Shown piece by piece: positions 36,982 to 60,891 of a stretch of 64,000 nucleotides of DNA. The stretch is from assembly GCA_000381585.1 (NCBI GenBank), contig KB906735.1:270242-334241 (forward strand), written 5' to 3'. This stretch comes from Acidobacteriaceae bacterium KBS 83 (GTDB taxonomy: Bacteria; Acidobacteriota; Terriglobia; Terriglobales; Acidobacteriaceae). Position 1 is the stretch's first letter. Each line of letters starts with the position of its first letter. A program made the translations under genes and the position numbers. The notes beneath the pieces were generated by a model. It was not told the DNA's origin, did no database searches, and saw nothing but the letters and a program-made list of their open reading frames with translations.

Positions 36982-37332
36982 ATGGCGCCCACCTCCAACC
37001 CCGATCAACGCGACCTCTTCCGCGGCGCGCTGGAGATGATGATCCTCCAGTCGCTCCGCCGCCAGCCCATGCACGGCTACGCCCTCGTCCAGCACATCAA
37101 GCAGCGTTCCGACGAGCTGCTGCAGGTGGAAGAGGGCTCGCTCTACCCTGCCTTGCAGCGCATGCTGAAAGACAATCTCGTCAAGGCCCAGTGGGAAACC
37201 TCCGCCAGCAACCGCCGCGTGCGCACCTACCGCATCACCCCGGCGGGCATCAAGCACCTCGAACGTGAAGTCTCCAGCTTTGAGCAGATGCTGAAGGGCA
37301 TCCATCTCGTCCTCGCTCCCGCCGAATCCTAA
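36982..37332 (+). CDS. PadR-family transcriptional regulator
   Basis: A 116-residue winged-helix regulator: RGALEMMILQSLRRQPMHGY (first helices), EEGSLYPALQRMLKDNLVKA (recognition helix; SLYPAL is the PadR signature) and RRVRTYRITPAGIKHLEREV (wing and dimer helix). This is the short form found next to ADOP permeases in Acidobacteriota. No strong ribosome site precedes the ATG and the transcript may have a short leader. It is followed 12 bases later by the permease gene, so the two form an operon and the palindrome upstream may mediate autoregulation. Confidence 0.92.
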   Translation: MAPTSNPDQRDLFRGALEMMILQSLRRQPMHGYALVQHIKQRSDELLQVEEGSLYPALQRMLKDNLVKAQWETSASNRRVRTYRITPAGIKHLEREVSSFEQMLKGIHLVLAPAES

Positions 37333-37343
37333 GGGGCTCCCTC

Positions 37344-39980
37344 ATGAATTGGCTTCGACAGCTCTTCACCCGCCGGCAGATCTACAACGACCTCTCCGAG
37401 GAGATCCGGCAGCACCTCGCGGAGAAGGTCGAGGCCCTCATCGCCGAAGGCATGAGCTGCCAGGACGCCGAGTACGCCGCAAAGCGCGAGTTTGGCAACA
37501 TAGCCCGCATCGAAGAGTCGGGCCACCAGCCCTGGATGTGGCCGCGCGCCGAAAGCATCCTCGCCGACATCCGCTTCGCCTTCCGCAAGCTGCGCCACTC
37601 ACCCGGCTTCGCTCTCACCGCCATCCTCACCCTCGCCTTTGGCATTGGCGCCAACGTCGTCGTCTTCAGCGTTCTCAACGGCATCCTCCTTCGCCCCATC
37701 GACGTTCCGCAACCCGGCAATCTCTTTCAGATCGCGCACGGTGAAAACGGAGGCGACTCGCAGTCCTATCCCGACTACCGCGACCTTCGCGATCGCAACC
37801 AGTCCTTCACCGGACTGCTGGCCTACAAGGTTCTCAGCGTCGGCATCACCCTGGAAAAGTCGGTCTCGCAGACCTGGGGCATCGCCGCCTCCGGCAACTA
37901 CTTCGATGTGCTCGGCCTGCAGCCCGCGCTCGGACGCTTCTTCCATGCGTCGGACGAACACGGCCTCGGCTCGGCCCCCTACATCGTGCTCAGCTACGAC
38001 TTCTGGCGCCGCCAGTTCGCCGGCAACCCGGGCGTCATCGGCAGCACCGTCCTGCTCAGTCAACATCCCTTCACCATCCTCGGTATCGCCCGCGAAGACT
38101 TTCACGGCACCGACTACTTCTTCTCGCCGGACTACTGGATCCCCGTCGTCAACGCCGAGCAGGTCACCGGCTGGGACGACTTCTGCTGCCGCGATCACGG
38201 CGGCTTCATCCTCCTCGGCCGCCTCAAGCCAGGCGTCGCGCCGCAGCTGTCTACGGAAAACCTCAACACCATCGCTCGCCAGATGGCAAAAGAGAATCTG
38301 AAGGACGAGGGTCTCACCCTCAGCGTGCGCCGCCCCGGGCCAGCGGGCGACACGCACGACCCCATGAGAAACGCGCTCTTCGGCATCACTCTGCTGGCCG
38401 TGCTCGTCCTGCTCGCCGCCTGCGCCAATCTCGCCGGCATCTTCGCCGCGCGCGCCGCCGACCGCTCGAGCGAGCTCGCCATCCGTCTCGCCATCGGCTC
38501 CAGCCGCTGGATGGTCGCGCGCCAGTTGCTCGCGGAAGCCGTGCTCCTCTCTCTCATCGGCGGCATCGTCGGCACCTTCCTCGCTCGCCTGCTGCTCGGC
38601 GCACTCGCCCACTGGCGCGCCGGAGACTTCCCCACCCGCTTCCTCATCGCGCCCGATGCGCGCGTCTACCTCGTCGCCATCGCCCTCTCCATCCTCAGCG
38701 GCATTCTCTTCGCCATCCTGCCCGCGCGGCAGGTCTGGAGCATCGATGTCATCCAGGCGATCAAGAGCGGTTACGTATTTGCCGGCTCTTTCCGCCGCTT
38801 CGCCGTGCGCGACGTCCTGCTCATCCTCCAGATCGTCGTGTGCACCCTGCTCGTCACCGCGTCGCTCGTCTCCGTGCGCGGTATGATGCGCCTCCTGCAC
38901 GTGCCTCTCGGTATGGAGCCGCGCGGCGTCACCTTCGCCGAGGTCGATCTGAAGACCGCCGGCGTCCCCGACGCGCAATCACGCCTTGTCCAGAGACGTC
39001 TACTGGACGCGGCAGCCACCCTGCCTGGAGTAACCTCCGCCGCCACCTCCGACAATCTCCCGTTCATGAACGGATGCTGCTGGTCTGTCTACCCTGGAAC
39101 CACCACGCAGTTCGTACCCTCGCGCGTGGCCTTCTCGTCCAATGTCTACCTGGTCTCTCCCGGCTATCTGCAGCTCGCCGGAACCCGTCTTGTATCCGGC
39201 CGCAACTTCACCGCCGACGACAAGCCTGGCTCACCCGCCGTCGCCATCGTCAATGAAACCTTCGCCCGCCAACTTTCCGGCACCACCACTCGTGCTATCG
39301 GCGGGCATTATGCCATGTGGGACAAGGCGCGATATGAAATCGTCGGCGTCGTCGAAGACGGCAAGTACAACAGTCTCGGTGAAGATCCGCAGCCCGCCAT
39401 GTTCCTCGCCTACGCGCAAGGCATTGGCGAATTCATCGTCTCCAGCCAGATATACGTGCTCGTCCGTTCGCATTTGCCGCAGGACCAGATCACCCGCTCG
39501 CTCCATCACGTGCTCTCCCAGATCGTCACCACCGCTCCGATCCCTGTACTTGCCTGGAACGACGCCATCGACCGCTCCATGATGCTCACCCGCGCCGCCG
39601 CCACGGTGCTCGGCGTCATGGGCCTCATGGCTGCCCTACTCGCCGTCACCGGCCTCTTCGGCATGGCCTCTTACTCCGTCTCGAAACGCATGAAAGAGCA
39701 GGGCATCCGCATCGCGCTCGGTGCGCAGCGCTTCCAGGTCATGCGCTCCACGCTCAGCCGTCCCATCCTCATCCTGCTTGGCGGTTCCTGCATCGGCCTC
39801 CTCGGCGGAGTGCTCGCCGCCGGCGTCCTTGCGCATCTCATCTCCTTCGCCAGTACACGCGACCCGCTTGTGTTGGCAGGAGTCGTCCTCACCATGATGC
39901 TGCTCGGCTTGGTCGCCACCTGGGTACCCGCACGCCGAGCCCTGCACATCGACCCCGCAGGGCTCCTGCGAGACTCGTGA
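37344..39980 (+). CDS. ADOP-type ABC transporter permease (MacB/FtsX, duplicated)
   Basis: An 878-residue inner-membrane protein. The N-terminus carries the permease prefix region (DLSEEIRQHLAEKVEALIAE, then AAKREFGNIARIEE). Then comes MacB-like core SPGFALTAILTLAFGIGANV (TM1), a periplasmic domain, an FtsX block (LAVLVLLAACANLAGIFAAR with SELAIRLAIGSSRW), a second periplasmic domain and the last FtsX block (GLFGMASYSVSKRMKEQGIR, then IALGAQ) ending HIDPAGLLRDS. This is the 'acidobacterial duplicated orphan permease' layout without a linked ATPase gene. Cargo is unknown. Large antisense frames opposite it are composition artefacts. Confidence 0.92.
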   Translation: MNWLRQLFTRRQIYNDLSEEIRQHLAEKVEALIAEGMSCQDAEYAAKREFGNIARIEESGHQPWMWPRAESILADIRFAFRKLRHSPGFALTAILTLAFGIGANVVVFSVLNGILLRPIDVPQPGNLFQIAHGENGGDSQSYPDYRDLRDRNQSFTGLLAYKVLSVGITLEKSVSQTWGIAASGNYFDVLGLQPALGRFFHASDEHGLGSAPYIVLSYDFWRRQFAGNPGVIGSTVLLSQHPFTILGIAREDFHGTDYFFSPDYWIPVVNAEQVTGWDDFCCRDHGGFILLGRLKPGVAPQLSTENLNTIARQMAKENLKDEGLTLSVRRPGPAGDTHDPMRNALFGITLLAVLVLLAACANLAGIFAARAADRSSELAIRLAIGSSRWMVARQLLAEAVLLSLIGGIVGTFLARLLLGALAHWRAGDFPTRFLIAPDARVYLVAIALSILSGILFAILPARQVWSIDVIQAIKSGYVFAGSFRRFAVRDVLLILQIVVCTLLVTASLVSVRGMMRLLHVPLGMEPRGVTFAEVDLKTAGVPDAQSRLVQRRLLDAAATLPGVTSAATSDNLPFMNGCCWSVYPGTTTQFVPSRVAFSSNVYLVSPGYLQLAGTRLVSGRNFTADDKPGSPAVAIVNETFARQLSGTTTRAIGGHYAMWDKARYEIVGVVEDGKYNSLGEDPQPAMFLAYAQGIGEFIVSSQIYVLVRSHLPQDQITRSLHHVLSQIVTTAPIPVLAWNDAIDRSMMLTRAAATVLGVMGLMAALLAVTGLFGMASYSVSKRMKEQGIRIALGAQRFQVMRSTLSRPILILLGGSCIGLLGGVLAAGVLAHLISFASTRDPLVLAGVVLTMMLLGLVATWVPARRALHIDPAGLLRDS

Positions 39981-40015
39981 AGAACCATGACTGAGACATA
40001 CAAATCGATTCGGAA

Positions 40016-40573
40016 ATGATGAATCCCATGGCCAAAACACTTGCGTACTGCCCCCATGCAACAGAAGAGATACCTGTGACATGTATCGACCAAAGGACAA
40101 CATCGGAGACGAGGTCCGCATCGGGCACAGCATCCTTGCTTGCCCAGCTCGGTGCACACGCGACCGCCCGGCTCACCAGTCGGCTGGCCGTGCTGGAGCT
40201 CGCTCCTGCGCACGCAGGCATTCTCAAAATCCTGGCCGGTACGCCAGGCATAAGTCAGTGCACACTTGCCAGGGCTCTCGGAACACTCCCGAGCCGAATG
40301 GTGGGATACGTCGACGAGCTCGAACGGAAAGATCTGCTGGAGCGCCGGCCGCACCAGAGCGACCGGCGTAACTATGCCCTGTACCTGACCAAAGCAGGGC
40401 AAGCCCTATATCGATCCACCTGCCGGCTGGCGGATGAGCATCAAGAGGCGCTTTTGGTGGGACTATCAAGGCACCAACAGGTGCAGCTAACGGAGCTACT
40501 GCAACTCGTCGCCAATCAACAGGGCCTGATCTCGATCATTCATCCGATGACACCATCGCAAGGGACACAATGA
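40016..40573 (+). CDS. MarR-family transcriptional regulator
   Basis: A 185-residue winged-helix dimer. After a 38-residue non-conserved N-terminus, the core reads LAQLGAHATARLTSRLAVLE, LAPAHAGILKILAGTPGISQ, CTLARALGTLPSRMVGYVDE, LERKDLLERRPHQSDRRNYA (the wing with the DRRNYAL signature), LYLTKAGQALYRSTCR. The start may be any of three closely spaced ATGs. It begins 35 bases after the ADOP stop and could be co-transcribed; no obvious own target gene is adjacent. Confidence 0.85.
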   Translation: MMNPMAKTLAYCPHATEEIPVTCIDQRTTSETRSASGTASLLAQLGAHATARLTSRLAVLELAPAHAGILKILAGTPGISQCTLARALGTLPSRMVGYVDELERKDLLERRPHQSDRRNYALYLTKAGQALYRSTCRLADEHQEALLVGLSRHQQVQLTELLQLVANQQGLISIIHPMTPSQGTQ

Positions 40574-40854: not shown

Positions 40855-42372
40855 TTATAGCGAGTTGAGGAACGCCACCAACTCAGCTTTCTGCTGATTG
40901 GTCAGCCCCATATTGAAGCGCTCGTTGTAGAAGTTCACTAGCTGGTTCAGATCGGTGGCCGCACCATTGTGAAAATAAGGAGCACGTGCCGCGAGGCCTC
41001 GCAGGATAGGGCCCTTGATACGATTTAGGTCGGTGCACTGACCTGTCAGCATGGCCTTCCCAATGTCTGTAGTGTAGATCGTGCCTTCTCCGGTAAACGG
41101 GTCGGTGCAACCGCTAATCCGGTAAACCGGCAGGTCAGGGAAGTTCAATTGAGCCAGCGCATTCCTGATCTGAGGATTCGTTTCGTACCGGGGAGAGTGT
41201 CCAGTTCCGATATCGAGGGGTAAAGGCAGAGAGTGATCGCCCACCCCAGGCGCGTCATGGCACGTCCCGCAAGTTCCAGTGATCGTAGAGGGGTTACCAA
41301 GCGCCGGATTGTCGTTGAGGCCGCGAACATCTGTGATGTGGATCGGGAAGCTGTTGAAGATCTGCTCACCGGCAGCAATTTCGGTGCGCGCGGCTTCTTC
41401 GGCGGAGAAAGCGCGTCGCTGGTTGGTCCAAGGCTCAAAGAGCGTGAAGATCGTCGGATCGAATCTGGATGGTGTCAGCGAATCGTTTATCCCTGGGGCA
41501 TAGGTCTGGCGTGAGAGCGCGAGCGGGCCGCCTTTGGCGCCGAATGCGGAGAGCAGCCCGGCACGGAAATCCCAGAACTGCGCCGTATAAAGGCCGAGTT
41601 CCACTCTGACGATATCGGCAAGTTGGGCGGCGGTTGGGTCGGCGGCAGACTGCGCGTGAGTCTGGACTGCATGCAATGCCTGCGTCGTGAGATCTGCTTC
41701 CAGATTGGCATTAAATGTGGCGGGGTCATTCAGCGGAAGCGCCGCGCTTTCACGTCCATCGAACATGACCGCACTCAGGAATCTGAGGTTCGTGGTAGGA
41801 AGCGGCCGGCGGTAGAAGGATAGGATCTGCTGTCCGGTGCTGGTGTCGGTTGAACAGCCGTAAGGATCGTACTCGGGCTGCACTGAGAACTGCGTAGAAA
41901 CAACAGGTGCGGCAAGGCCGATTCGGATCAGTCCGTGTTCCAGAAGCAGTGAATGGTCGGCTTCATCCCGGGGCCCCGCACCAGGACAATTTGCGCCGTC
42001 AACAGAAGCGAAAAGGGGGTCCCTGCCCCGACTGGAGGTATACCTCTCGCGGACGCCCGTAACACTGACGCTGAAGCCCTGGCTGACCACATGGCATGTT
42101 GCGCAACTGCGACCGTTGGTGCCGAGACTCTGGAAGAATGCGCTCTTCTGGCTGATATTTCCGTTCTCGCTGTAGGTGGCCACGAACCCGCTGCGATCCA
42201 GATAAGGCTGAAGGTTGAAAATCACCGAATTTCCGGTAGCCTTCGCTTGCTCACCGCGAACGGAATCCAAACCGAGAACGAGAAGAATTGCAGCGGCCGC
42301 GGCCGTCGCGGCTACTCCCCCGATGACGCGAGTTCTCACAAGGCGCTTCGACTTCAAGACGTTGAGCGACAT
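40855..42372 (-). CDS. Di-haem cytochrome c peroxidase family protein
   Basis: A 505-residue exported protein with two covalent haem sites: RSCATCHVV (about residue 92) and GTCGTCHDA (about residue 367). It has a signal-anchor of residues about 15-40 (VIGGVAATAAAAAILLVLGL). The C-terminus GPILRGLAARAPYFHNGAATD and LNQLVNFYNERFNMGLT is the conserved CCP/MauG-type ending, with RAPYFHNG diagnostic. Start 42372 is supported by GGAGG four bases upstream; the in-frame start at 42558 would overlap the divergent gene. It is larger than classical BCCP (about 330 residues). Expected to reduce peroxides or oxidise an unknown partner in the periplasm. Confidence 0.88.
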   Translation of the reverse strand: MSLNVLKSKRLVRTRVIGGVAATAAAAAILLVLGLDSVRGEQAKATGNSVIFNLQPYLDRSGFVATYSENGNISQKSAFFQSLGTNGRSCATCHVVSQGFSVSVTGVRERYTSSRGRDPLFASVDGANCPGAGPRDEADHSLLLEHGLIRIGLAAPVVSTQFSVQPEYDPYGCSTDTSTGQQILSFYRRPLPTTNLRFLSAVMFDGRESAALPLNDPATFNANLEADLTTQALHAVQTHAQSAADPTAAQLADIVRVELGLYTAQFWDFRAGLLSAFGAKGGPLALSRQTYAPGINDSLTPSRFDPTIFTLFEPWTNQRRAFSAEEAARTEIAAGEQIFNSFPIHITDVRGLNDNPALGNPSTITGTCGTCHDAPGVGDHSLPLPLDIGTGHSPRYETNPQIRNALAQLNFPDLPVYRISGCTDPFTGEGTIYTTDIGKAMLTGQCTDLNRIKGPILRGLAARAPYFHNGAATDLNQLVNFYNERFNMGLTNQQKAELVAFLNSL

Positions 42373-42423
42373 CGTGCCTCCATTGCGCGTGATCGTGATC
42401 GGGACCCGGGCTTCCGGCAATAG

Positions 42424-42440
42424 CGAACGCCTGACGTTCG
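42424..42440. promoter_or_regulatory. Inverted repeat in divergent promoter region
   Basis: CGAACG-CCTGA-CGTTCG, a perfect 6-5-6 palindrome, lies in the 167 bases between the divergent cytochrome c peroxidase and kinase genes. A candidate operator for either; no regulator can be named. Confidence 0.4.
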
Positions 42441-42511
42441 TATGACTTTCTTCTGTCCCGCCATACTGTTGAAAATGCGAGCGTTGGCCCGAATGGCCGG
42501 ACGGAGGTAAA

Positions 42512-42601
42512 ATGTCGGCCTCACTCCGCGGGGCATGGAATGGCGGCAGGATCAGCAAGAATCCAGGGCGAGGTACGGTTCGGCGAAGACTTCGAACTTG
42601 A
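42512..42601 (+). CDS. Short upstream ORF overlapping the kinase gene start
   Basis: An ATG at 42512 with GGAGG four bases upstream opens a 29-codon frame (SASLRGAWNGGRISKNPGRG and a basic tail) ending at TGA 42599-42601, 60 bases inside the kinase gene in another frame. The kinase ATG at 42540 itself lacks a good ribosome site. This suggests a leader peptide with translational coupling, or less likely a misplaced kinase start. Confidence 0.4.
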   Translation: MSASLRGAWNGGRISKNPGRGTVRRRLRT

Positions 42602-45600
42602 TTGCCGCAATTTCCAGCTTCGACGCGCCGGCCGCGTGCTGAAACTGGAACGGATCCCTTTGGAGATGCTGATCCTGCTGATCGAACGGGCAGGTCACCT
42701 GGTCACCCGAGAGGAAATCGCAGAACGGATCTGGGGAACAAATGTCTTCCTCGACACAGACAACAGCATCAACAGCGCGATCCGGAAGATCCGGCAAGTG
42801 TTGCGGGACGATCCTGAGCAGCCCAGATTCGTTCAGACGGTGATCGGGCGAGGGTATCACTTTGTTGTCTCTCAACTGAGGTCCGATTCCGCCGAGAGTG
42901 CCTCAACAGACGAACACAGGATCGCAGCGGATGGTTCTCTCCTAGGCCGCAAGATCGGAGATTACCGCGTTCTTGAATTGATTGGTGGCGGCGGTATGGG
43001 AGTGGTGTATCGGGCTGAAGATCTCAAGTTGGACCGCCAAGTCGCCATAAAATTCCTCCCCGCTGAACTGGTGAATACAGCGGCCGCCTTCGAGCGGATG
43101 AAGCGAGAGGCACGCATGGCCTCAGTCCTGGAACATTCCAACATCTGCCCGATTTATCAACTCGCCGAATTTGAGGGCCGGCCATTCATTGTCATGCCAT
43201 TGCTCAACGGCAGAACGCTACGGGAATGGATAGTGTCGCAGCGTACACGACCCGCTGGAATCTGCGCCCGGGAGATTCTGAACCTGGCAATTCAGATCAG
43301 CGAAGCGCTCAAGGCAGCACACGCTCGGAGTATTCTGCACCGCGATATCAAGCCTGCCAATATCTTCATTACATCGAATGATGAGGTAAAAATCCTCGAC
43401 TTTGGAGTAGCAGAGATCCTGCATGTGGGTGGAACTGCCGGGAGTGATACTCAAGCCGAAACCGACTGTTCCTTCACCGGCACACCCGCTTATTTATCGC
43501 CAGAGCAGATTCTTGGCGAGACGCTGGATGAGCGGACTGATCTATTCTGTTTCGGCTCCGTTCTCTACGAAATGTGTACCGGACACCGTGCATTTGAACG
43601 AGAGAACATAGCTGCCACATACGAGGCAATTCTTGGCGAACCGCCGCCTCCCATCCGTGTATGTAGGGCGGAGCTCCCGATCAAGTTGGAAGCGATCGTC
43701 CAGAAGGCGATGGAACGGGACCGCGAGCGTCGATATCGAACGGCGGCGGAAATGGGCGCGGAACTCTCCACCCTTAGAGCCGAACTAAGCTCTCCGGCAG
43801 AAACAGCGCCGGAACAGGACCAAGCTTCAGGGCGAATCTCCATCTGGCGGACAGTGGGAGTTAGTTTGGCCGTCGCGAGCATGCTGGCCCCCGCGGCGCT
43901 CTGGCTGCTGATGCGCACAGATACACAACAGCCGTTCCGGGACTTCACCATCACACAAATTACCGATACCGGGCGCGCCGAGCAGGCGGCCATCTCCCCG
44001 GACGGCAAGTACGTTTTACACGTGCAGGATGAGAGGGGGATGAAGAGCCTCCGCCTGCGCAATATCGTGACCGGAAGCGATATGGAGATTCTGTCGCCCG
44101 AAGGAACGCGCTTCAAATCGCTGGTGTTCTCGCCAGATGGCAATTACGTCTACTTCCGCCGGCTCGTGAACAGTATCGGCAACGAATGGGACGTGTTCCG
44201 CATGCCTGTTCTTGGCGGCAGCCCAGAACGACTTATGCGCGATGTCGACAGCGACATCACCTTTTCGCCTGACGGAACGCGGCTCTCATATGTAAGAGCC
44301 AATGATCCCGACGAGGGTAGATACCGTGCGCTGACGGCCGATCTGGACGGCAGCAACGAAACCGTCCTGACGGATCAGAAGATCAATGGTTTCGGCAACG
44401 ACGGGTACCCGCCTTTCAATACATGGTCGCCCGACGGCAAGCAAATTGTCTTTACATTCGCCAAAATGGCCGACGAACCGGGCATTATCCGGGTGTTGAA
44501 CATAACGACGGGGCGATTCAGCGCATTGCAGCATTTTCCGGACCTGCTGACCTTCGATATTCACTGGCTGCCAGGCGGCAAGTGGCTGCTGCTTGTGCAG
44601 TCACCGCGAGGTGGAGAGCCAGGTTCATCTCAGATCAGCGCATTTTCTCTGAGAGACGGGAAACTTTATCCGGTAACCCGCGACGCGAACAGCTACTCGA
44701 GTCTCAGCCTCTCTGCTGACGGGAAGATTGCGGCAGCCGTGCAGAACAGGTCGTTCTCTCACATAGATCTTTTCGATTTGAATTCGCATGGGCTGGAAGC
44801 CCGCAAAGACGTGATTCCGGACGTTCTGGCGAATGTACGCTCGTTCGACTGGTCGGGTAAGGATCATCTGCTCGTTTCCGACGGATCCAGACTTTTCCGT
44901 GTCGACGTCTCGAATGGAAAATCGACGGAACTCCTCTCCGAGGCGCCGAGGGCTATTGTCGGCCTGGCGCAGTGCGCGACCGGCGCTATCGTGATCAACC
45001 TCGAATCCAGGACGGGCAATCGCAGCGGCGAAATTTGGAGGCTAAACCCGGACGGGTCGAATCCAAGCAGACTTAGCAACGGACAATACGATATGTCTCC
45101 CGCATGCTCTCCGAACGGCAAATGGGTGTACTACCTTGATGGAATGCAGCGTCTAAAGCGCGTTCCCACGGAAGGAGGAAAATCCGAAGCCGTTGGGGGG
45201 GCCATTACGAACCTCGACCGCGTGTTTGGGACCTTGAGCTTTTCACCCCGTGGGAACCGGATGCTCGCATTGGTGGACATTGTGGATCGCGCTTCGAACC
45301 GGGCGCAGCCACGCTTGGCCATTTTCGACCTACAAGGCGGAACTCAATCCGCTCCGCGGCTGCTTGTCCCCAATCCGAACATCAGTGCAGGATCGTTGTA
45401 CAGTGGCGGTGCGCGATTCAGCCCGGACGGCTACTCGGTCGTATATGCGATCAAGACGAATGGCGTTGGGAACCTCTGGATTCAGCCACTCGACGGCTCC
45501 CCGGGACGCGTCGCAACAAATTACTCGTCCGACGTAATTTCTCACTTTCGTCTTTCGCCTGATGGCACCGCGCTGGCAGTCAGCCGCGTGCACACTATCT

Positions 45601-45638
45601 CAGATATCGTCGTCCTCCGGAATGCCCCGAACCCCTAG
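42540..45638 (+). CDS. Winged-helix / Ser-Thr kinase / TolB beta-propeller membrane fusion
   Basis: A 1032-residue protein with four parts. Residues 8-110: OmpR/PhoB-type winged helix (LEMLILLIERAGHLVTREEI, IWGTNVFLDTDNSINSAIRK, FVQTVIGRGYHFV). Residues 140-410: Hanks-type kinase with IGGGGMGVVYRAED, Lys in VAIKFLP, HRDIKPANI (about 267), LDFGVAEI (about 287) and GTPAYLSPEQ, so it looks catalytically complete. One membrane helix about 439-459 (SLAVASMLAPAALWLLM). From about 470 to the end: TolB/WD40-like repeats (ISPDGKYVLHV, FSPDGNYVYF, FSPDGTRLSYV, WSPDGKQIVF, FSPDGYSVVYA, LSPDGTALAV). A DNA-binding and kinase module would face the cytoplasm and the propeller the periplasm. Ligand, DNA target and substrate are unknown. 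It is divergent from the cytochrome c peroxidase gene. Confidence 0.9.
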   Translation: MAAGSARIQGEVRFGEDFELDCRNFQLRRAGRVLKLERIPLEMLILLIERAGHLVTREEIAERIWGTNVFLDTDNSINSAIRKIRQVLRDDPEQPRFVQTVIGRGYHFVVSQLRSDSAESASTDEHRIAADGSLLGRKIGDYRVLELIGGGGMGVVYRAEDLKLDRQVAIKFLPAELVNTAAAFERMKREARMASVLEHSNICPIYQLAEFEGRPFIVMPLLNGRTLREWIVSQRTRPAGICAREILNLAIQISEALKAAHARSILHRDIKPANIFITSNDEVKILDFGVAEILHVGGTAGSDTQAETDCSFTGTPAYLSPEQILGETLDERTDLFCFGSVLYEMCTGHRAFERENIAATYEAILGEPPPPIRVCRAELPIKLEAIVQKAMERDRERRYRTAAEMGAELSTLRAELSSPAETAPEQDQASGRISIWRTVGVSLAVASMLAPAALWLLMRTDTQQPFRDFTITQITDTGRAEQAAISPDGKYVLHVQDERGMKSLRLRNIVTGSDMEILSPEGTRFKSLVFSPDGNYVYFRRLVNSIGNEWDVFRMPVLGGSPERLMRDVDSDITFSPDGTRLSYVRANDPDEGRYRALTADLDGSNETVLTDQKINGFGNDGYPPFNTWSPDGKQIVFTFAKMADEPGIIRVLNITTGRFSALQHFPDLLTFDIHWLPGGKWLLLVQSPRGGEPGSSQISAFSLRDGKLYPVTRDANSYSSLSLSADGKIAAAVQNRSFSHIDLFDLNSHGLEARKDVIPDVLANVRSFDWSGKDHLLVSDGSRLFRVDVSNGKSTELLSEAPRAIVGLAQCATGAIVINLESRTGNRSGEIWRLNPDGSNPSRLSNGQYDMSPACSPNGKWVYYLDGMQRLKRVPTEGGKSEAVGGAITNLDRVFGTLSFSPRGNRMLALVDIVDRASNRAQPRLAIFDLQGGTQSAPRLLVPNPNISAGSLYSGGARFSPDGYSVVYAIKTNGVGNLWIQPLDGSPGRVATNYSSDVISHFRLSPDGTALAVSRVHTISDIVVLRNAPNP

Positions 45639-46226: not shown

Positions 46227-46327
46227 GCGGATGTTATAAATGTTGCGTTGCAAGCGTTTGCAATGTTGCTTGAGTGAAAGCAGCAAAGAGGATCGGCGAA
46301 ATTTTGGCCGCGGAAAGACTGTTCATT

Positions 46328-49216
46328 ATGGAGAGAAGACAGCTTCTTAAACATTTTGGAGTCTTCACAGGAGGCCTGCTCTATCCCAAGGGAGCATGGC
46401 CGCAAGCGTCATCCTCAGCAACGTCCGAGCCCGCGGTGAACCTCGCCACACCGATACGAGCGCTGACGCGCCGGGATGGCAAGCTCCTGCAGCCGCTGCT
46501 GATTTCTCCGCGTCCCGGAACCCATGGCGAAGTCGTCACCAAAATCGATGGCGTTGAAGTTGATCGCAGAAGTGCCTCAGACCCGGCCGGTCCTTTCGAG
46601 GTCTATTTCGAGCCGTCACCGCAGACGCGGTCTCTTTTCATCTCTGTCGAGGTAAACAACATCGCGCTGACCGAAACGGTCTCCGTAAAACCGGCCCGGA
46701 AGGTTCTGGTCTACGTCCTGCCCCATTCGCATCATGATCTCGGCTACACCGACCTGCAGGCGGCAGTGGAAGAAAAGCAGATGCAGAACATCACGCTTGC
46801 CATGGAGCTTGCGAACAAGACAGCGAGCTATCCCGAAGGAGCGCGTTTCATTTGGAATCTCGAAGTTCTATGGGGCTGCGACTTTTTCATGCAGCGGCGG
46901 TCGGAGGCCGAAAAGAAAGCCCTCATCGAGGCCATTCGCAGGGGCCAGATCTCGCCGCAGGGATCTTATGCGAATGAGCTCACGGGACTCTGCCGCCCCG
47001 AAGAATTGCTGCGACTCTTCAAGTACGGAACGCAGCTCGGCAAGCAGTGTGGCATCAAAGTCGATTCCGCCATGATGAGCGACGTGCCCGGATACTCGTG
47101 GGGAACGGTAACCGCCATGTCTCAGGCAGGCATACGCTATTTTTCCGGCGCGCCCAACTTCTTCGATCGCATCGGCACATTTATGGAGGCCTGGCAGGAT
47201 CGGCCTTTCTGGTGGGTTTCTCCCTCGGGCCGCGAAAAGGTTCTGATGTGGATTCCATGGACTGGTTACGCGCTCTCGCACATCACCAAGAAGCTCAACG
47301 AAGAATGGGTGGGAAGATATCAGGACCGCCTCGACGAAGTCATCTACCCTTACGACATCTCCTACATTCGCTGGTCGGGTCATGGAGATAACGCCGCGCC
47401 CGATCCTGAGATCAGCGATTTCATTCGCGACTGGAACGCCAAGTACGAGTGGCCTCGCTTCTCGATCGCGTCTACCAGTACGGCGTTTTCCGCCTTTGAA
47501 AAGAGATACGGCCATCAGCTGCCTTCCTATCGCGGCGACCTGACCCCGTATTGGGAAGATGGCGCAGGCTCCTCGGCGCTCGAGACTGCCATGAGTAGAA
47601 ACGCCGCCGACCGGCTCACGCAGGCTGCCACGCTGGCATCCATGCTGGTGCCCGGAAGCTATGACGAATCAGCCTACGCGATGGCATGGCGGGACGTGCT
47701 CATGTATTCCGAACACACATGGGGCGCGTGGTGCAGCGTATCCGACTCGGAGAATCCATTCACAAAGAAGCAGTGGGACTACAAGCGGGATTTTGCTGTC
47801 AAAGCGGAAAGCCGCTCCGAAGCCCTGATAGCTGCATCGTTACCCGCTTCCGACGCAACAGTGCAAGGTTCCATCGATGTGCACAATACGTCTTCATGGA
47901 GTCGAACCGGAATCGTGTATGTCTCCCGCCAGCTTTCCTCTGCAGGCGATTCTGTGGTCACCGCAGATGGCAGACCCGTTCCGTCGCAAAGACTGAGCAA
48001 TGGTGAGCTCGCGATTCTTGCCAGCGATATACCGGCGCTAGCCACAGCCAGCTACAAGATCTCTCCCGGACCTGCGCACCGTTCCGATCACGCGGTCACG
48101 ATCAAGAACAACGTGTTGACGAACCGGTTCCTGAGCTTCCATGTCGACCCGGAAACAGGAGACATCGTCGAGCTCTATCGCAAAGGCAGCCACGAAAACC
48201 TGGTCAATCGAGATCACGGAGCGGTGAACCAGTATCTGTTTCTCTCCGGCATAGATTTCGCGCACGTCGGCCGCAGCGGCAAACCCACGATCACCGTGGA
48301 AGAAAATGGACCGCTGGTAGCTTCGATCCGCATCGATTCGTCCGCACCAGGGTGCAGGCACCTTACCCGGCGAATCCGGCTTTGCGAAGAGACGAACTTC
48401 GTCGAGATCAGTAACATCGTCGACAAAGAACGAGCGCCGCTTAATCCACATCCCGGCCAGGGTGACCAGGGCTCCGACTTTGCACAGCACGGTTCGAAAG
48501 AGAGCGTGCAGTTCGCGTTTCCGCTTTCTGTCCCGAACGGAAAGATGCTGCTGGATATTCCTCTCGGCGCCATGCAGCCAGAGGTCGACCAGCTCCCCGG
48601 CTCGTGCAAAAACTGGCTCCCCGTCGGCCGATGGATCGACGTCTCGAATGAGAGCTTCGGAGTAACGTGGGCCACGCTCGACGCACCGCTGGTGGAAGTT
48701 GGCGGCATTACCGCCACCATGCTTGGTTCACAGAAGGTTCCCGCTCTGTGGCGTCAGCACATTGAACCCACTCAGACCTTCTACTCCTGGGTGATGAACA
48801 ACCATTGGGGAACAAACTATCTCGCATATCAGTCCGGACCGGTGACTTTCCGCTATGCCTTGCGCCCTCACGAGAGCGAAGATATCGCCGCGGCGAGCCG
48901 CTTTTCCACGGGGCTCTCGTACCCGCTTTTGGTAAGCCCTACCGTCAATCACGAGTTGACCTCCAAATCGATGCTCCAGATCGAGCCTTCGAGCGCTTTA
49001 TTGACCGAGCTGAAGCCCAGCGATGACGGCAAGGCCTGGATCGTGCGCCTCTTTGCAGCTTCCGATGAAGATGTGAGCGCACATCTCACCTGGTCGTCTA
49101 AGAGTATCGGCCAAACGTTTCTGAGTAATCTGGCGGAAGAACCTTTGCGCCCCGTGAGCGGCGATGTCTCAATAGCTGGATGGGATCTTGTGACACTTCG
49201 TGTGGAACGAACCTAG
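46328..49216 (+). CDS. Tat-exported GH38-like alpha-mannosidase-family enzyme
   Basis: A 962-residue predicted exoenzyme. The N-terminus ERRQLLKHFGVFTGGLLYP has a twin-arginine signal. After an Ig-like segment comes the GH38 metal site LPHSHHDLGYTD (about residues 130-141) and the candidate nucleophile Asp in MSDVPGYSWG (about 251), then YIRWSGHGDNAAPDPE and LMYSEHTWGAW. The C-terminal half (from about 520) is beta-sandwich with RFLSFHVDPETGDIVELYRK and LTRRIRLCEETNFVEISNIV, as in GH38 C-terminal domains. Start 46328 is preferred over 46274 because it places the Tat motif at the N-terminus. It is large and divergent from classic mannosidases, so substrate is inferred only as an alpha-linked glycan. 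Confidence 0.82.
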   Translation: MERRQLLKHFGVFTGGLLYPKGAWPQASSSATSEPAVNLATPIRALTRRDGKLLQPLLISPRPGTHGEVVTKIDGVEVDRRSASDPAGPFEVYFEPSPQTRSLFISVEVNNIALTETVSVKPARKVLVYVLPHSHHDLGYTDLQAAVEEKQMQNITLAMELANKTASYPEGARFIWNLEVLWGCDFFMQRRSEAEKKALIEAIRRGQISPQGSYANELTGLCRPEELLRLFKYGTQLGKQCGIKVDSAMMSDVPGYSWGTVTAMSQAGIRYFSGAPNFFDRIGTFMEAWQDRPFWWVSPSGREKVLMWIPWTGYALSHITKKLNEEWVGRYQDRLDEVIYPYDISYIRWSGHGDNAAPDPEISDFIRDWNAKYEWPRFSIASTSTAFSAFEKRYGHQLPSYRGDLTPYWEDGAGSSALETAMSRNAADRLTQAATLASMLVPGSYDESAYAMAWRDVLMYSEHTWGAWCSVSDSENPFTKKQWDYKRDFAVKAESRSEALIAASLPASDATVQGSIDVHNTSSWSRTGIVYVSRQLSSAGDSVVTADGRPVPSQRLSNGELAILASDIPALATASYKISPGPAHRSDHAVTIKNNVLTNRFLSFHVDPETGDIVELYRKGSHENLVNRDHGAVNQYLFLSGIDFAHVGRSGKPTITVEENGPLVASIRIDSSAPGCRHLTRRIRLCEETNFVEISNIVDKERAPLNPHPGQGDQGSDFAQHGSKESVQFAFPLSVPNGKMLLDIPLGAMQPEVDQLPGSCKNWLPVGRWIDVSNESFGVTWATLDAPLVEVGGITATMLGSQKVPALWRQHIEPTQTFYSWVMNNHWGTNYLAYQSGPVTFRYALRPHESEDIAAASRFSTGLSYPLLVSPTVNHELTSKSMLQIEPSSALLTELKPSDDGKAWIVRLFAASDEDVSAHLTWSSKSIGQTFLSNLAEEPLRPVSGDVSIAGWDLVTLRVERT

Positions 49217-49384
49217 CGTGCGAATGGAAAAACGTGGCGTCCTCACAACTTCCTTTTACTCCGAAAGTTCCGTAAGGCGTAGCCGTGCTTGATTCGAAGA
49301 TTGGAGCAGGGTTCGTGCTTCTCGAGGCCAACAGCAAGTGCGAGCTTCGCTTTGCCGGGCGCTGGCGTTCGTCAGGGCTCCAAG

Positions 49385-49800
49385 CGGCAGGACATCCCGG
49401 ACATCCTAGTAGAAGTCTCGGAATTGCAGGCCATCGTTGCGGAGTTGCATTTAAGAAAGCGCGTGTTGGTATTTCTAGACATGGCGAGTAGACTACGCCG
49501 AGGCGAGCTGGATGGAATAAAGTGGCGTGACTTCGATTTTGCTGCTCTCGATATCAACGTCCAACGCGCGGTCGTGAACCAAATCGTTGGCCGGTGCAAA
49601 ACCGAGGCTTCACAGAAACGCATCCCTTTGGACCCGTAAACGGCCCGGGATCTGCTTGCCTGGTATGAAGTCACACCACACCGGGACTGGGTGACTCCGT
49701 CTTCGCCTCCGACAACAGCCGTACGGGAGAGAGGCGCGGGAAGCAACCGCTGTGGTTGTCGACTATCATGCGCTACTACATCCAACTGGTGGCCAAACGA
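49385..49800 (+). pseudogene. Tyrosine recombinase (phage-type integrase) remnant
   Basis: The plus strand reads SELQAIVAELHLRKRVLVFL, then DMASRLRRGELDGIKWRDFD with the first catalytic Arg (RRGEL), then NQIVGRCKTEASQKRIPLDP and a stop, then RDLLAWYEVTPHRD and, after a frameshift, LSTIMRYYIQLVAKRLGINK. The C-terminal part with HxxR and the nucleophile Tyr is missing. CKTEASQK.(I/V)PLDP is shared with the larger integrase pseudogene at 59.6 kb, so the two belong to one family. Confidence 0.8.
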
Positions 49801-58560: not shown

Positions 58561-59304
58561 ATGTGTGGTCGCTACGCACGACGCTCAGATAAGCAGAAGA
58601 TCGCCGAGCATTTCGCCGTGCATGGCCCTTCCCTACCAGATTTCGGTCCGTCCTGGAACGTTGCGCCGCAGACCTTTCAGCCCGTTCTGAGGCTTAATCG
58701 GGATACCGGCGAACGCGAGATCGTCATGATGCGATGGGGACTCGTGCCCTATTGGGCAAAGGACCCGAAGATCGGCCTGCGGACCATTAACGCCAAGGCA
58801 GAGACAATCACGACCGCGCCAGCGTTCCGTGAAGGCATCAAGTACCGTCGCTGCCTTGTACCTGCCGACGCATTTTACGAGTGGCAAAAGTTAAACACCA
58901 ACACGAAGCAGCCGTTTGCGATCGCGTTAAAGAGCGGAGAACCGTATGCGTTTGCCGGGTTGTGGGAGAGATCGAAAGATCGGAAGGCAGCCGCAGATTT
59001 GCTTACATTTACGGTGATCACGACAGACCCGAATGAAGTGGTGCAGCGACTGCACGACAGGATGCCATGCATCATTGCGAAGCGAGACTATGACCGCTGG
59101 CTCACACCTGGAGATCCACTGCGACCACCGGTCGATCTGCTCAGACCATTCGACGCGGAGAAGATGACTGCCTGGCGGGTAGACGCGAAGGTGGGAAACG
59201 TGAAGTACGACACGTCAGATTTGATTGAGCCAGTTTCGATGAGCACGGGAGAGGTTCAAAAAGCCGATGGGGAGGTTCCCAGGCCGGGGTCGCTCTTCCC
59301 GTGA
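58561..59304 (+). CDS. SRAP-domain DNA-protein crosslink protein (YedK/HMCES family)
   Basis: A 247-residue protein that in this family crosslinks to abasic sites in single-stranded DNA. Start: MCGRYARRSD with catalytic Cys2 exposed after Met removal. Asn in LRTINAKAET (about 80), Glu in ADAFYEWQKL (about 105) and His in VVQRLHDRMPCII (about 164) form the rest of the active site. Length and order match E. coli YedK with an extended C-terminus. It lies between a phage protease scrap and a decayed integrase, a common setting because SRAP genes travel on mobile elements. A broken paralogue lies at 56985. Confidence 0.92.
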   Translation: MCGRYARRSDKQKIAEHFAVHGPSLPDFGPSWNVAPQTFQPVLRLNRDTGEREIVMMRWGLVPYWAKDPKIGLRTINAKAETITTAPAFREGIKYRRCLVPADAFYEWQKLNTNTKQPFAIALKSGEPYAFAGLWERSKDRKAAADLLTFTVITTDPNEVVQRLHDRMPCIIAKRDYDRWLTPGDPLRPPVDLLRPFDAEKMTAWRVDAKVGNVKYDTSDLIEPVSMSTGEVQKADGEVPRPGSLFP

Positions 59305-59319
59305 TTGCTTGGCAGTTTC

Positions 59320-59535
59320 GTCGAGATTATGCGGCGGCTCGTTGCGCAGGGGGTACCAAGTGCCAGGGATGGGTCGGGCGATGTTGCCTGGGGCCAGTGC
59401 CGCCTGTTCCGCCTCTTTCCTTCGCTCAGCAGCCAGCTGATTTTTCAGATCCTGGATGTTGTTGTCGGTGTTGTCCTGTACTACTGGCTGTGGCGGATCG
59501 TTTTTACCCGTCGGCTGATGGGCTACCCTTGAAGC
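59320..59535 (-). pseudogene. Possible TrbI/VirB10 conjugation-protein fragment
   Basis: The minus strand reads SRVAHQPTGKNDPPQPVVQD, NTDNNIQDLKNQLAAERRKE and AEQAALA. The Pro-rich stretch followed by DNNIQ.LK.QLAAER coiled coil resembles the N-terminal region of TrbI/VirB10 proteins. It is short and outside any proper gene, so the call is tentative; if right it indicates conjugative as well as phage-type DNA. Confidence 0.35.
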
Positions 59536-59567
59536 GAGCCATCCGTTCCCGCCGACGGGAGAAATCC

Positions 59568-60813
59568 ATGAAGCGGACACGGCATCAACAAGGAACACTC
59601 AGGCTCGAAGAACGTGCGAACGGCACACGCGTGTGGGAGTACCGATGGTACGAAACACAGATCGACGGCTCGCGCCGTCTACGCAGAGCAATGATCGGTA
59701 CTTTGGATGAGTATCCGACCGAATCAGGAGCGCAAAAGGCCGTCGCCGCGCTTAGGGCAAATATCAACTCTGAAACCCCTCGGGGCCAACTTGACGCGGT
59801 CAGCTTTGGGACCTTGACCCAGCATTACCGCGAGCGAGAACTGACCGAGGCCTCCGGCAAAACATTCAAGACAATCAACGTAAACGAAGGCTACTTGGAA
59901 AGGTGGATCACACCGCGATGGTCATCGTGCAGGCTGAAGGACATCAGGTCGGTCGTGGTGGAGGAATGGCTTCGGTTGCTTCCGCCCGCAAATGGAAGCA
60001 AAGCGAAGATTCGTAACCTAATGCACGCAATCTTCAATCACGCGATCCGCTGGGAATGGCACGACCGGAACCCAATCTCGATGGTGCGGCAGAGCGCCAA
60101 GAGACAGAAGGTGCCTACTGTGTTGAACATCGAGCAGATCAAACCTCTGCTGGAGCATCTTCAGGATCCCGGCAAGACCGCCGTCCTCTTGGACACTCTC
60201 ACGGGTCTTCGTGTGAGCGAATTGCTCGCGCTCAAGTGGTCGGACGTGGACTTCGAAAATCTCGTTCTTCACGTCACCCGCTCGATAGCATATCAGCATG
60301 TCGGCCCTTGTAAGACAGAGGCATCGCAGAAGCCTGTCCCACTCGACCCGGAACTGGCCGAGGCGCTGCTAATGTCGCGCCGGAGGTCACCTTATCCTGG
60401 CGACGCCGATTGGGTCTTCGTAAACCCAGCCAGCTCGGGCAAATTGCCATACTGGTCGTTCTCTATCTATCGGACCTACATCAAACCAGCGCTCAAAAAG
60501 GCGAAGATCACCTCCAAGGTGGGCTGGCACACCTTCCGTCACTCCTTTCGCAACGATCCTTAAGTCGCACGGCGAAGACGTGAAGACAGTACAGGAAGAC
60601 GTGAAGACAGTACAGAAACTCGTGCGGCACGCGAACAGCAGCGTGACCCTCAACCTCTACGCACAAGCGGTAACGGACATCAAGCGCACTGCGCAGAGCA
60701 AAGTGGCACGGCTTGTTTTCGCCGAAAAGGCAGTAACCGATGATTGGAAACCTTATTGGACCTTTTTGGACCGGCGGCGATTTCCGGCGATGTCGGCTAA
60801 GTTATTGAATTAA
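59568..60813 (+). pseudogene. Tyrosine recombinase (integrase), inactivated by frameshift
   Basis: A nearly complete integrase of about 410 residues. GGGAGAAATCC precedes the ATG. It has an Arg-rich N-terminal arm (RTRHQQGTLRLEERANGTRV), a core-binding SAM-like domain, and catalytic residues TGLRVSELLALKW (Arg), GWHTFRHSF (His-x-x-Arg) and NLYAQA (Tyr). An extra A at about 60552 shifts the frame after RHSFR (it should read RTILKSHGEDVKTVQ). Beyond that a 21-bp tandem duplication repeats EDVKTVQ. The last codon ends 3 bases from the tRNA-Glu CCA end, so the element used this tRNA as its target. Confidence 0.88.
60574..60615 (+). repeat. 21-bp perfect tandem duplication in the integrase
   Basis: Two abutting identical 21-base units (60574-60594 and 60595-60615), in frame and encoding EDVKTVQ twice, just before the catalytic Tyr helix. 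Related integrases normally have this segment once (GEDVKTVQELLRHA). Confidence 0.9.
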
Positions 60814-60815
60814 TT

Positions 60816-60891
60816 TGGCGTCCCCGACGGGATTCGAACCCGTGTTACCGCCGTGAAAGGGCGATGTCCTAGGCCACTGGACGACGGGGAC
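60816..60891 (-). tRNA. tRNA-Glu(TTC)
   Basis: Read on the minus strand: acceptor GTCCCCG pairing CGGGGAC, D-arm GTCCAGTGGCCTAGGAC, anticodon stem-loop with CCTTTCAC (anticodon TTC), T-arm ACGGG-TTCGAAT-CCCGT, discriminator G and an encoded CCA at 60816-60818. All stems are intact. It is the boundary of the mobile region at its left, with an integrase gene abutting its 3' end. Confidence 0.95.

Follow-up and report, generated by a model that had tools for sequence, protein, structure and literature searches.

The gene at positions 42540-45638 of the 64,000-nucleotide stretch of Acidobacteriaceae bacterium KBS 83 analysed here (hereafter, the window) encodes, in one chain, a DNA-binding domain, a PknB-type Ser/Thr kinase, a membrane helix and a propeller. 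We propose that this protein is a membrane-anchored one-component regulator of the CadC/ToxR type which acts locally, on its own gene and on the divergent cytochrome gene, and that the inserted PknB-type kinase would tune it; we give this reading a probability of about 50%. The features of the protein are as follows:

42540-45638, + strand: whole gene, wHTH-kinase-TM-propeller, 1032 residues (ORF, Pfam domains)
42576-42869, + strand: OmpR/CadC-type winged helix-turn-helix (wHTH), residues 13-110 (PF00486, E 3.7e-16; PDB sequence matches)
42870-42953, + strand: linker, residues 111-138, of low predicted order (pLDDT below 50 at residues 113-131)
42954-43790, + strand: PknB-type Ser/Thr kinase domain, residues 139-417, an optional cassette (PF00069, catalytic residues, PknB alignment)
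43851-43913, + strand: single transmembrane helix, residues about 438-458 (Kyte-Doolittle hydropathy 2.0)
43929-45629, + strand: PD40/TolB-like propeller region, residues 464-1030, probably extracytoplasmic (PF07676, strands in the model, weak PDB TolB matches)

The gene is a single unbroken ORF, counted from its ATG. The combination of wHTH, PknB-type kinase, membrane helix and propeller in one chain had been claimed from the letters alone (hereafter, the sequence-only reading), and both Pfam profiles and hydropathy agree with it. The domain search which that reading had proposed places all three domains above their Pfam cut-offs: Trans_reg_C (PF00486) at residues 32-108 with 59 bits (cut-off 26), Pkinase (PF00069) from residue 142 with 143 bits (E 2e-41, cut-off 32) and the PD40 repeats (PF07676) with 63 bits (E 2.7e-17, cut-off 21). 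CadC (5ju7) and ToxR chains are among the PDB sequence matches of the wHTH, and PknB is that of the kinase (E 5e-48). The earlier name "TolB propeller" stands as far as the PD40 propeller is concerned, but not for TolB proper, since the model for TolB of Tol-Pal (TIGR02800) gives 80.7 bits against a curated cut-off of 343; the propeller, which has strands all along in the AlphaFold2 model and weak PDB sequence matches to TolB, is thus PD40/TolB-like, and the name TolB is a loose one. The CadC equivalog (NF007540) scores 36 bits against a cut-off of 400, on the wHTH part only, the Stk1/PknB PASTA kinase family (NF033483) 268 bits against 450, and no PASTA repeat is matched in the protein by Pfam. 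The structure prediction that had also been proposed is confident for the wHTH (pLDDT about 80-90) and for the kinase (mostly 80-98), whose predicted model resembles PknB (Z 34.7, 1.4 Å over 259 residues; VIA-align, kinase part), but poor for the propeller, which was modelled without an adequate alignment. With one membrane helix and then an outer sensor, the protein would have the topology of CadC/ToxR regulators. The 6.25-Mb genome of the organism contains 38 wHTH and 14 kinase matches, and only this gene combines the two.

Full-length searches of 60 related genomes revealed three architectures around the protein. The closest relative, from G025 (L050:4760-7066, 769 residues), has the wHTH (63% identity), the membrane helix and the whole propeller (51%), without the kinase. 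The second group consists of kinase-TM-propeller proteins devoid of wHTH, whose propellers are 24-41% identical to that of the window protein. The third is that of the wHTH-kinase fusions, which agree with the earlier statement that the fusion occurs in Acidobacteria genomes: they are found in G029 (NB-ARC/TPR), G005 (TM-propeller, with another wHTH type), G016 (TM-TPR), G073 (two, TM-TPR) and G663 (TM-TPR), and, in a sample of the phylum, in G190, G443, G436 and G127; four candidates were scored per genome in this survey, so that the counts of fusions are lower bounds. In G443, the wHTH-kinase part (433 residues) and the TPR part (689 residues) are encoded by separate, overlapping genes (L149:5105-8460); in the related protein of G190 (L148) they are joined in a single chain.

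The wHTHs that are about 55-72% identical to that of the window protein form a clade whose members differ in their sensors. Five members carry a kinase between wHTH and sensor (the window protein, L047, L183, L184 and L185). Others are kinase-free, with a propeller (L050), NB-ARC/TPR (L182, L186) or TM-TPR (L054, L126, L147, L187 and others). When the sequences are read by eye, the sensors of L184 and L054, and those of L185 and L187, are visibly alike, with the kinase in one and without it in the other. In this clade the kinase is an optional cassette, and its position in the chain is fixed. In G073, a kinase-fused member (1259 residues) and a kinase-free member (646 residues) are encoded in tandem (L184:4344-10429); their recognition helices are near-identical, and they may be partners or substrates of each other.

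The intergenic region that separates the regulator gene from its divergent neighbour contains two further elements:

42416-42470, + strand: operator-like block CAATAGCG...TTCTTCTGTCCCGCCATAC, common to the wHTH clade (leave-out score 21.4)
42508-42513, + strand: TAAAAT, a -10-like element of the presumed regulator promoter, seen in the sequence; a similar element lies upstream of other clade members

In the clade, the block reads CMATAGCG, about 16 nucleotides, TTAATTTTyrTGTC, then CGCyAA, in one orientation and often followed by a TAnaAT element. It lies about 110-190 bp before the start codon (mostly 110-130) in about 20 members, whatever their sensor: the first ten examined all have it, as do most of those added later. 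Repeats of TGTGTCGCG, about 22 bp apart, were read by eye in several members and would suit tandem binding by OmpR-type domains. A model built from 18 members, leaving out the window and G025 (R2), matched G025 (E 0.003 in 380 kb) along with additional members; in its ungapped form it did not find the block in the window, whose copy has diverged. When flexible spacing is allowed, the same 18 sequences give the intergenic region of the window a score of 21.4, which is reached by none of 2000 dinucleotide shuffles and none of 1986 random stretches of the window, and that of G025 a score of 21.9 (none of 1000 shuffles). Of 14 upstream regions taken from other wHTH clades, 13 score no more than about 6. 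The remaining one, L048, upstream of 5191, scores 14.5, well above the other controls; it precedes a wHTH-kinase-TM-TPR gene of another clade. The full model R1 finds no further site in the genome of the window organism (next E 0.4); R1 includes the window sequence, so that this result bears on the absence of other sites and not on the window site itself. The block is termed operator-like and is a candidate operator for the wHTH, close to its presumed target.

The presumed target is the divergent gene:

40855-42372, - strand: exported di-haem MauG/RoxA-like c-type cytochrome, 505 residues from the ATG (two CXXCH; weak PF03150 and PF21419)

The sequence-only reading named this neighbour a cytochrome c peroxidase; the two CXXCH haem motifs are there, and di-haem MauG/RoxA-like c-type cytochrome is the better name. 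PF03150 matches it with 27.3 bits (cut-off 25.6) and does not match the G025 cytochrome, and PF21419 is below its cut-off. The survey of this gene suggested at the time shows that it is conserved, in the same divergent layout, beside the kinase-less relative in G025, where the other flanking genes differ from those of the window. Of 120 related genomes, 25 contain relatives of the cytochrome. Six of the 20 loci that were read have an adjacent wHTH gene, five of them divergent and one convergent; leaving the window out, the proportion is 5/19 (p about 5e-6, relative to how densely wHTH genes occur in the genome of the window). At two other loci (L071:8236-11620 and L075:9032-11941), genes encoding an ECF sigma factor (TIGR02999) and a Ser/Thr kinase are directly upstream of the cytochrome relative. 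The neighbour of this enzyme family is thus a wHTH regulator at some loci and a sigma factor/kinase pair at others; in the window it is a single protein that combines wHTH and kinase. Redox or exported enzymes are frequent as divergent neighbours of other members of the wHTH clade (L183:1820-3445, L184:2616-4202, L143:4510-5862 and L185:8056-9564): they are DHOR di-haem oxidoreductases (twice, both by kinase-fused members), a PAP2-superfamily protein and a cytochrome P450.

Regarding the kinase itself, the window protein retains G149, G151 and G154, K171, E190, H267-R268-D269, K271, N274, D287-F288-G289, E322, D334 and R398. Every catalytic residue is kept, consistent with the earlier description of the kinase as active-looking, and the reading of the domain as a dead kinase is excluded on sequence, all catalytic and nucleotide-binding residues being present. 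The Thr of the activation loop is retained too. A putative phosphomimetic replacement of Thr by Glu at residue 307 was considered and set aside: the simplest reading of the loop makes it shorter by one residue, which puts T308 in the place of the usual Thr. The domain has nevertheless diverged, with 12 changes at 80 otherwise conserved positions, versus a median of 2.

CadC/ToxR regulators work from the membrane. In the mechanism that we propose, the propeller would sense an extracytoplasmic condition and the wHTH would bind the block as a dimer. Dimerisation would activate the kinase, so that the chain may be phosphorylated in cis or across the dimer, on Ser/Thr residues of the wHTH, the linker or the juxtamembrane segment, and phosphorylation would tune either DNA binding or the contact with RNA polymerase. 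The kinase would in this way add an ATP-dependent gate, or a memory, to a switch that may also work without it. This reading is supported by the kinase-less G025 relative, which keeps the wHTH, the membrane helix, the propeller and the divergent cytochrome in otherwise different surroundings. It is also supported by the operator-like block, which is clade-wide, is recovered in the leave-out test for both the window and G025 and is the single site that R1 finds in the genome, by the kinase being there or missing in one and the same position in proteins with propeller, NB-ARC or TM-TPR parts, by the catalytic residues, intact despite the changes at conserved positions, and by the enrichment of wHTH genes beside the cytochrome family. 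Three observations count against it: no Ser/Thr is conserved in the linker among the fused members compared, the kinase has a long branch in its trees and may be losing its function, and the copy of the block in the window has diverged. There are precedents elsewhere: PknB-type kinases phosphorylate, in trans, the OmpR-type wHTH regulators GraR, EmbR and Rv2175c (PMC4601284), and ECF sigma factors are acted on by Ser/Thr kinases in EcfP/PknT and EcfK/PknS (PMC8999054, PMC13147305).

Another possibility, which we consider unlikely although it has points in its favour, is that the protein has two outputs: the wHTH would regulate the local promoter, while the kinase would phosphorylate other proteins (kinase-free wHTH paralogues, sigma factors or RNA polymerase), the DNA-bound membrane protein serving as a platform. 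PknB-type kinases usually act in trans, the G073 tandem associates kinase-fused and kinase-free proteins whose recognition helices are near-identical, and ECF sigma/kinase pairs adjoin the same cytochrome family elsewhere. However, neither an ECF sigma gene nor a second wHTH gene is found beside the window gene, and the kinase recurs in one position, with the wHTH before it and the sensor after it, which suits an internal role.

It may also be that the kinase is passive or decaying, merely a spacer or a dimerisation unit, and that the signal passes, as in CadC, via the membrane helix only. The kinase is absent from the closest relative, and its divergence is also apparent in the kinase trees, where its branch is 1.1-1.3 long, about 3.5-4 times the median of 0.32. 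Since the branches of the wHTH and of the propeller are of ordinary length, the kinase is possibly losing its function. Such fast evolution would be expected either from a kinase adapting to an internal role or from one freed from selection, and adaptation is the likelier of the two because the catalytic residues are intact. Decay should have struck some of the catalytic and nucleotide-binding residues, or the activation-loop Thr, first, and all are kept, so that we regard a passive kinase as rather improbable. As to an artefact of assembly or gene calling, which the restriction of the exact wHTH-kinase-TM-propeller set with this wHTH type to the window could evoke, it can be practically dismissed, the gene being one intact ORF inside an 850-kb contig, with similar wHTH-kinase junctions in other genomes and the same architecture, with another wHTH type, in G005.

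The origin of the regulator is composite. In the kinase tree, the window kinase groups with those of L184 and L185 (100/94), within a group made solely of wHTH-fused kinases (98/92), and L047 and L183 form another group (100/99). In the propeller tree, the window protein and G025 are together, inside the kinase-TM-propeller proteins. The gene is therefore a chimera, whose kinase groups with wHTH-fused kinases and whose propeller groups with G025 among kinase-TM-propeller proteins. These separate origins, the dispensability of the kinase to the architecture and the clade-wide block were not part of the sequence-only reading. Inheritance of the kinase together with the propeller, from a kinase-TM-propeller protein, was not rejected in an earlier kinase tree (AU p=0.31), but it was once closer wHTH-fused kinases had been added (AU p=0.003). 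A single origin of all wHTH-kinase fusions was rejected with the first kinase tree (p=0.012). As to the order of events, a G025-like protein may have gained the kinase, or a wHTH-kinase protein the propeller.

The protein is a variation on a known theme, that of the transmembrane transcription regulators (TTRs), and not a system of a new kind. It shares with CadC/ToxR TTRs the N-terminal OmpR-type wHTH, the single membrane helix, the predicted C-terminal outer sensor and a presumed divergent or local target, but it differs from them by the Ser/Thr kinase between wHTH and membrane and by the PD40 propeller as sensor. The survey of TTRs treats hybrids with histidine-kinase and receiver domains, and a word search of its main text returns no Ser/Thr kinase hybrid (PMC10269533). 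With the PknB-type TM kinases that have WD40/PD40 or TPR outer domains (in Acidobacteriota here, and in Planctomycetota, PMC11032199), it has in common the cytoplasmic kinase, the single helix and the outer propeller or TPR; these kinases are without a DNA-binding domain, unlike the window protein, and a word search within the text of PMC11032199 returned no wHTH or DNA-binding architecture. In EmbR/PknH and GraR/Stk1, too, an OmpR-type DNA-binding domain is paired with a PknB-type kinase, but the two are separate proteins and the kinase acts in trans, whereas the window protein is one chain. In the ECF43 sigma/kinase pairs (EcfP/PknT, EcfK/PknS), a Ser/Thr kinase likewise controls a transcription factor, which is, however, a sigma factor and not a wHTH, and is separately encoded; an ECF sigma/kinase pair adjoins the cytochrome family of the window in two genomes. 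Last, in the hybrid two-component systems of Bacteroides a single membrane protein likewise contains a sensor, a kinase and a DNA-binding domain, but with histidine kinase and receiver chemistry. No earlier description of wHTH-Ser/Thr kinase hybrids was found in the open-access literature searched.

Only tentatively, we suggest that these proteins could form a class of hybrid regulators, the Ser/Thr counterpart of hybrid two-component systems, in which an exchangeable Ser/Thr kinase cassette lies between a fixed wHTH/operator and a swappable sensor, and phosphorylation within one DNA-bound membrane protein would control the gene of a redox enzyme. For a few pairs that act in trans, it is known how bacterial Ser/Thr kinases reach transcription. 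In the present case kinase and wHTH are on one chain, with a presumed operator and a presumed target gene at hand, and forms with and without the kinase exist naturally for the same wHTH, the same type of sensor and even the same neighbouring redox-enzyme gene, so that what the kinase contributes can be tested directly by module swapping in a laboratory host. In this phylum, the DNA-binding domain, the kinase and the sensor are each exchanged as a module of its own, and the upstream block goes along with the DNA-binding domain.

Elsewhere in the window, a PadR regulator, a MacB/FtsX-type permease (878 residues) and a MarR regulator are encoded in a row (36982-40573), and a GH38-like glycosidase (46274-49216) follows the regulator gene. 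An integrase-like ORF (59301-60563) lies beside a tRNA-Glu (60816-60891), and a shorter integrase-like fragment (49289-49639) shares the KTEASQK motif with it; the two may mark the ends of an integrated element.
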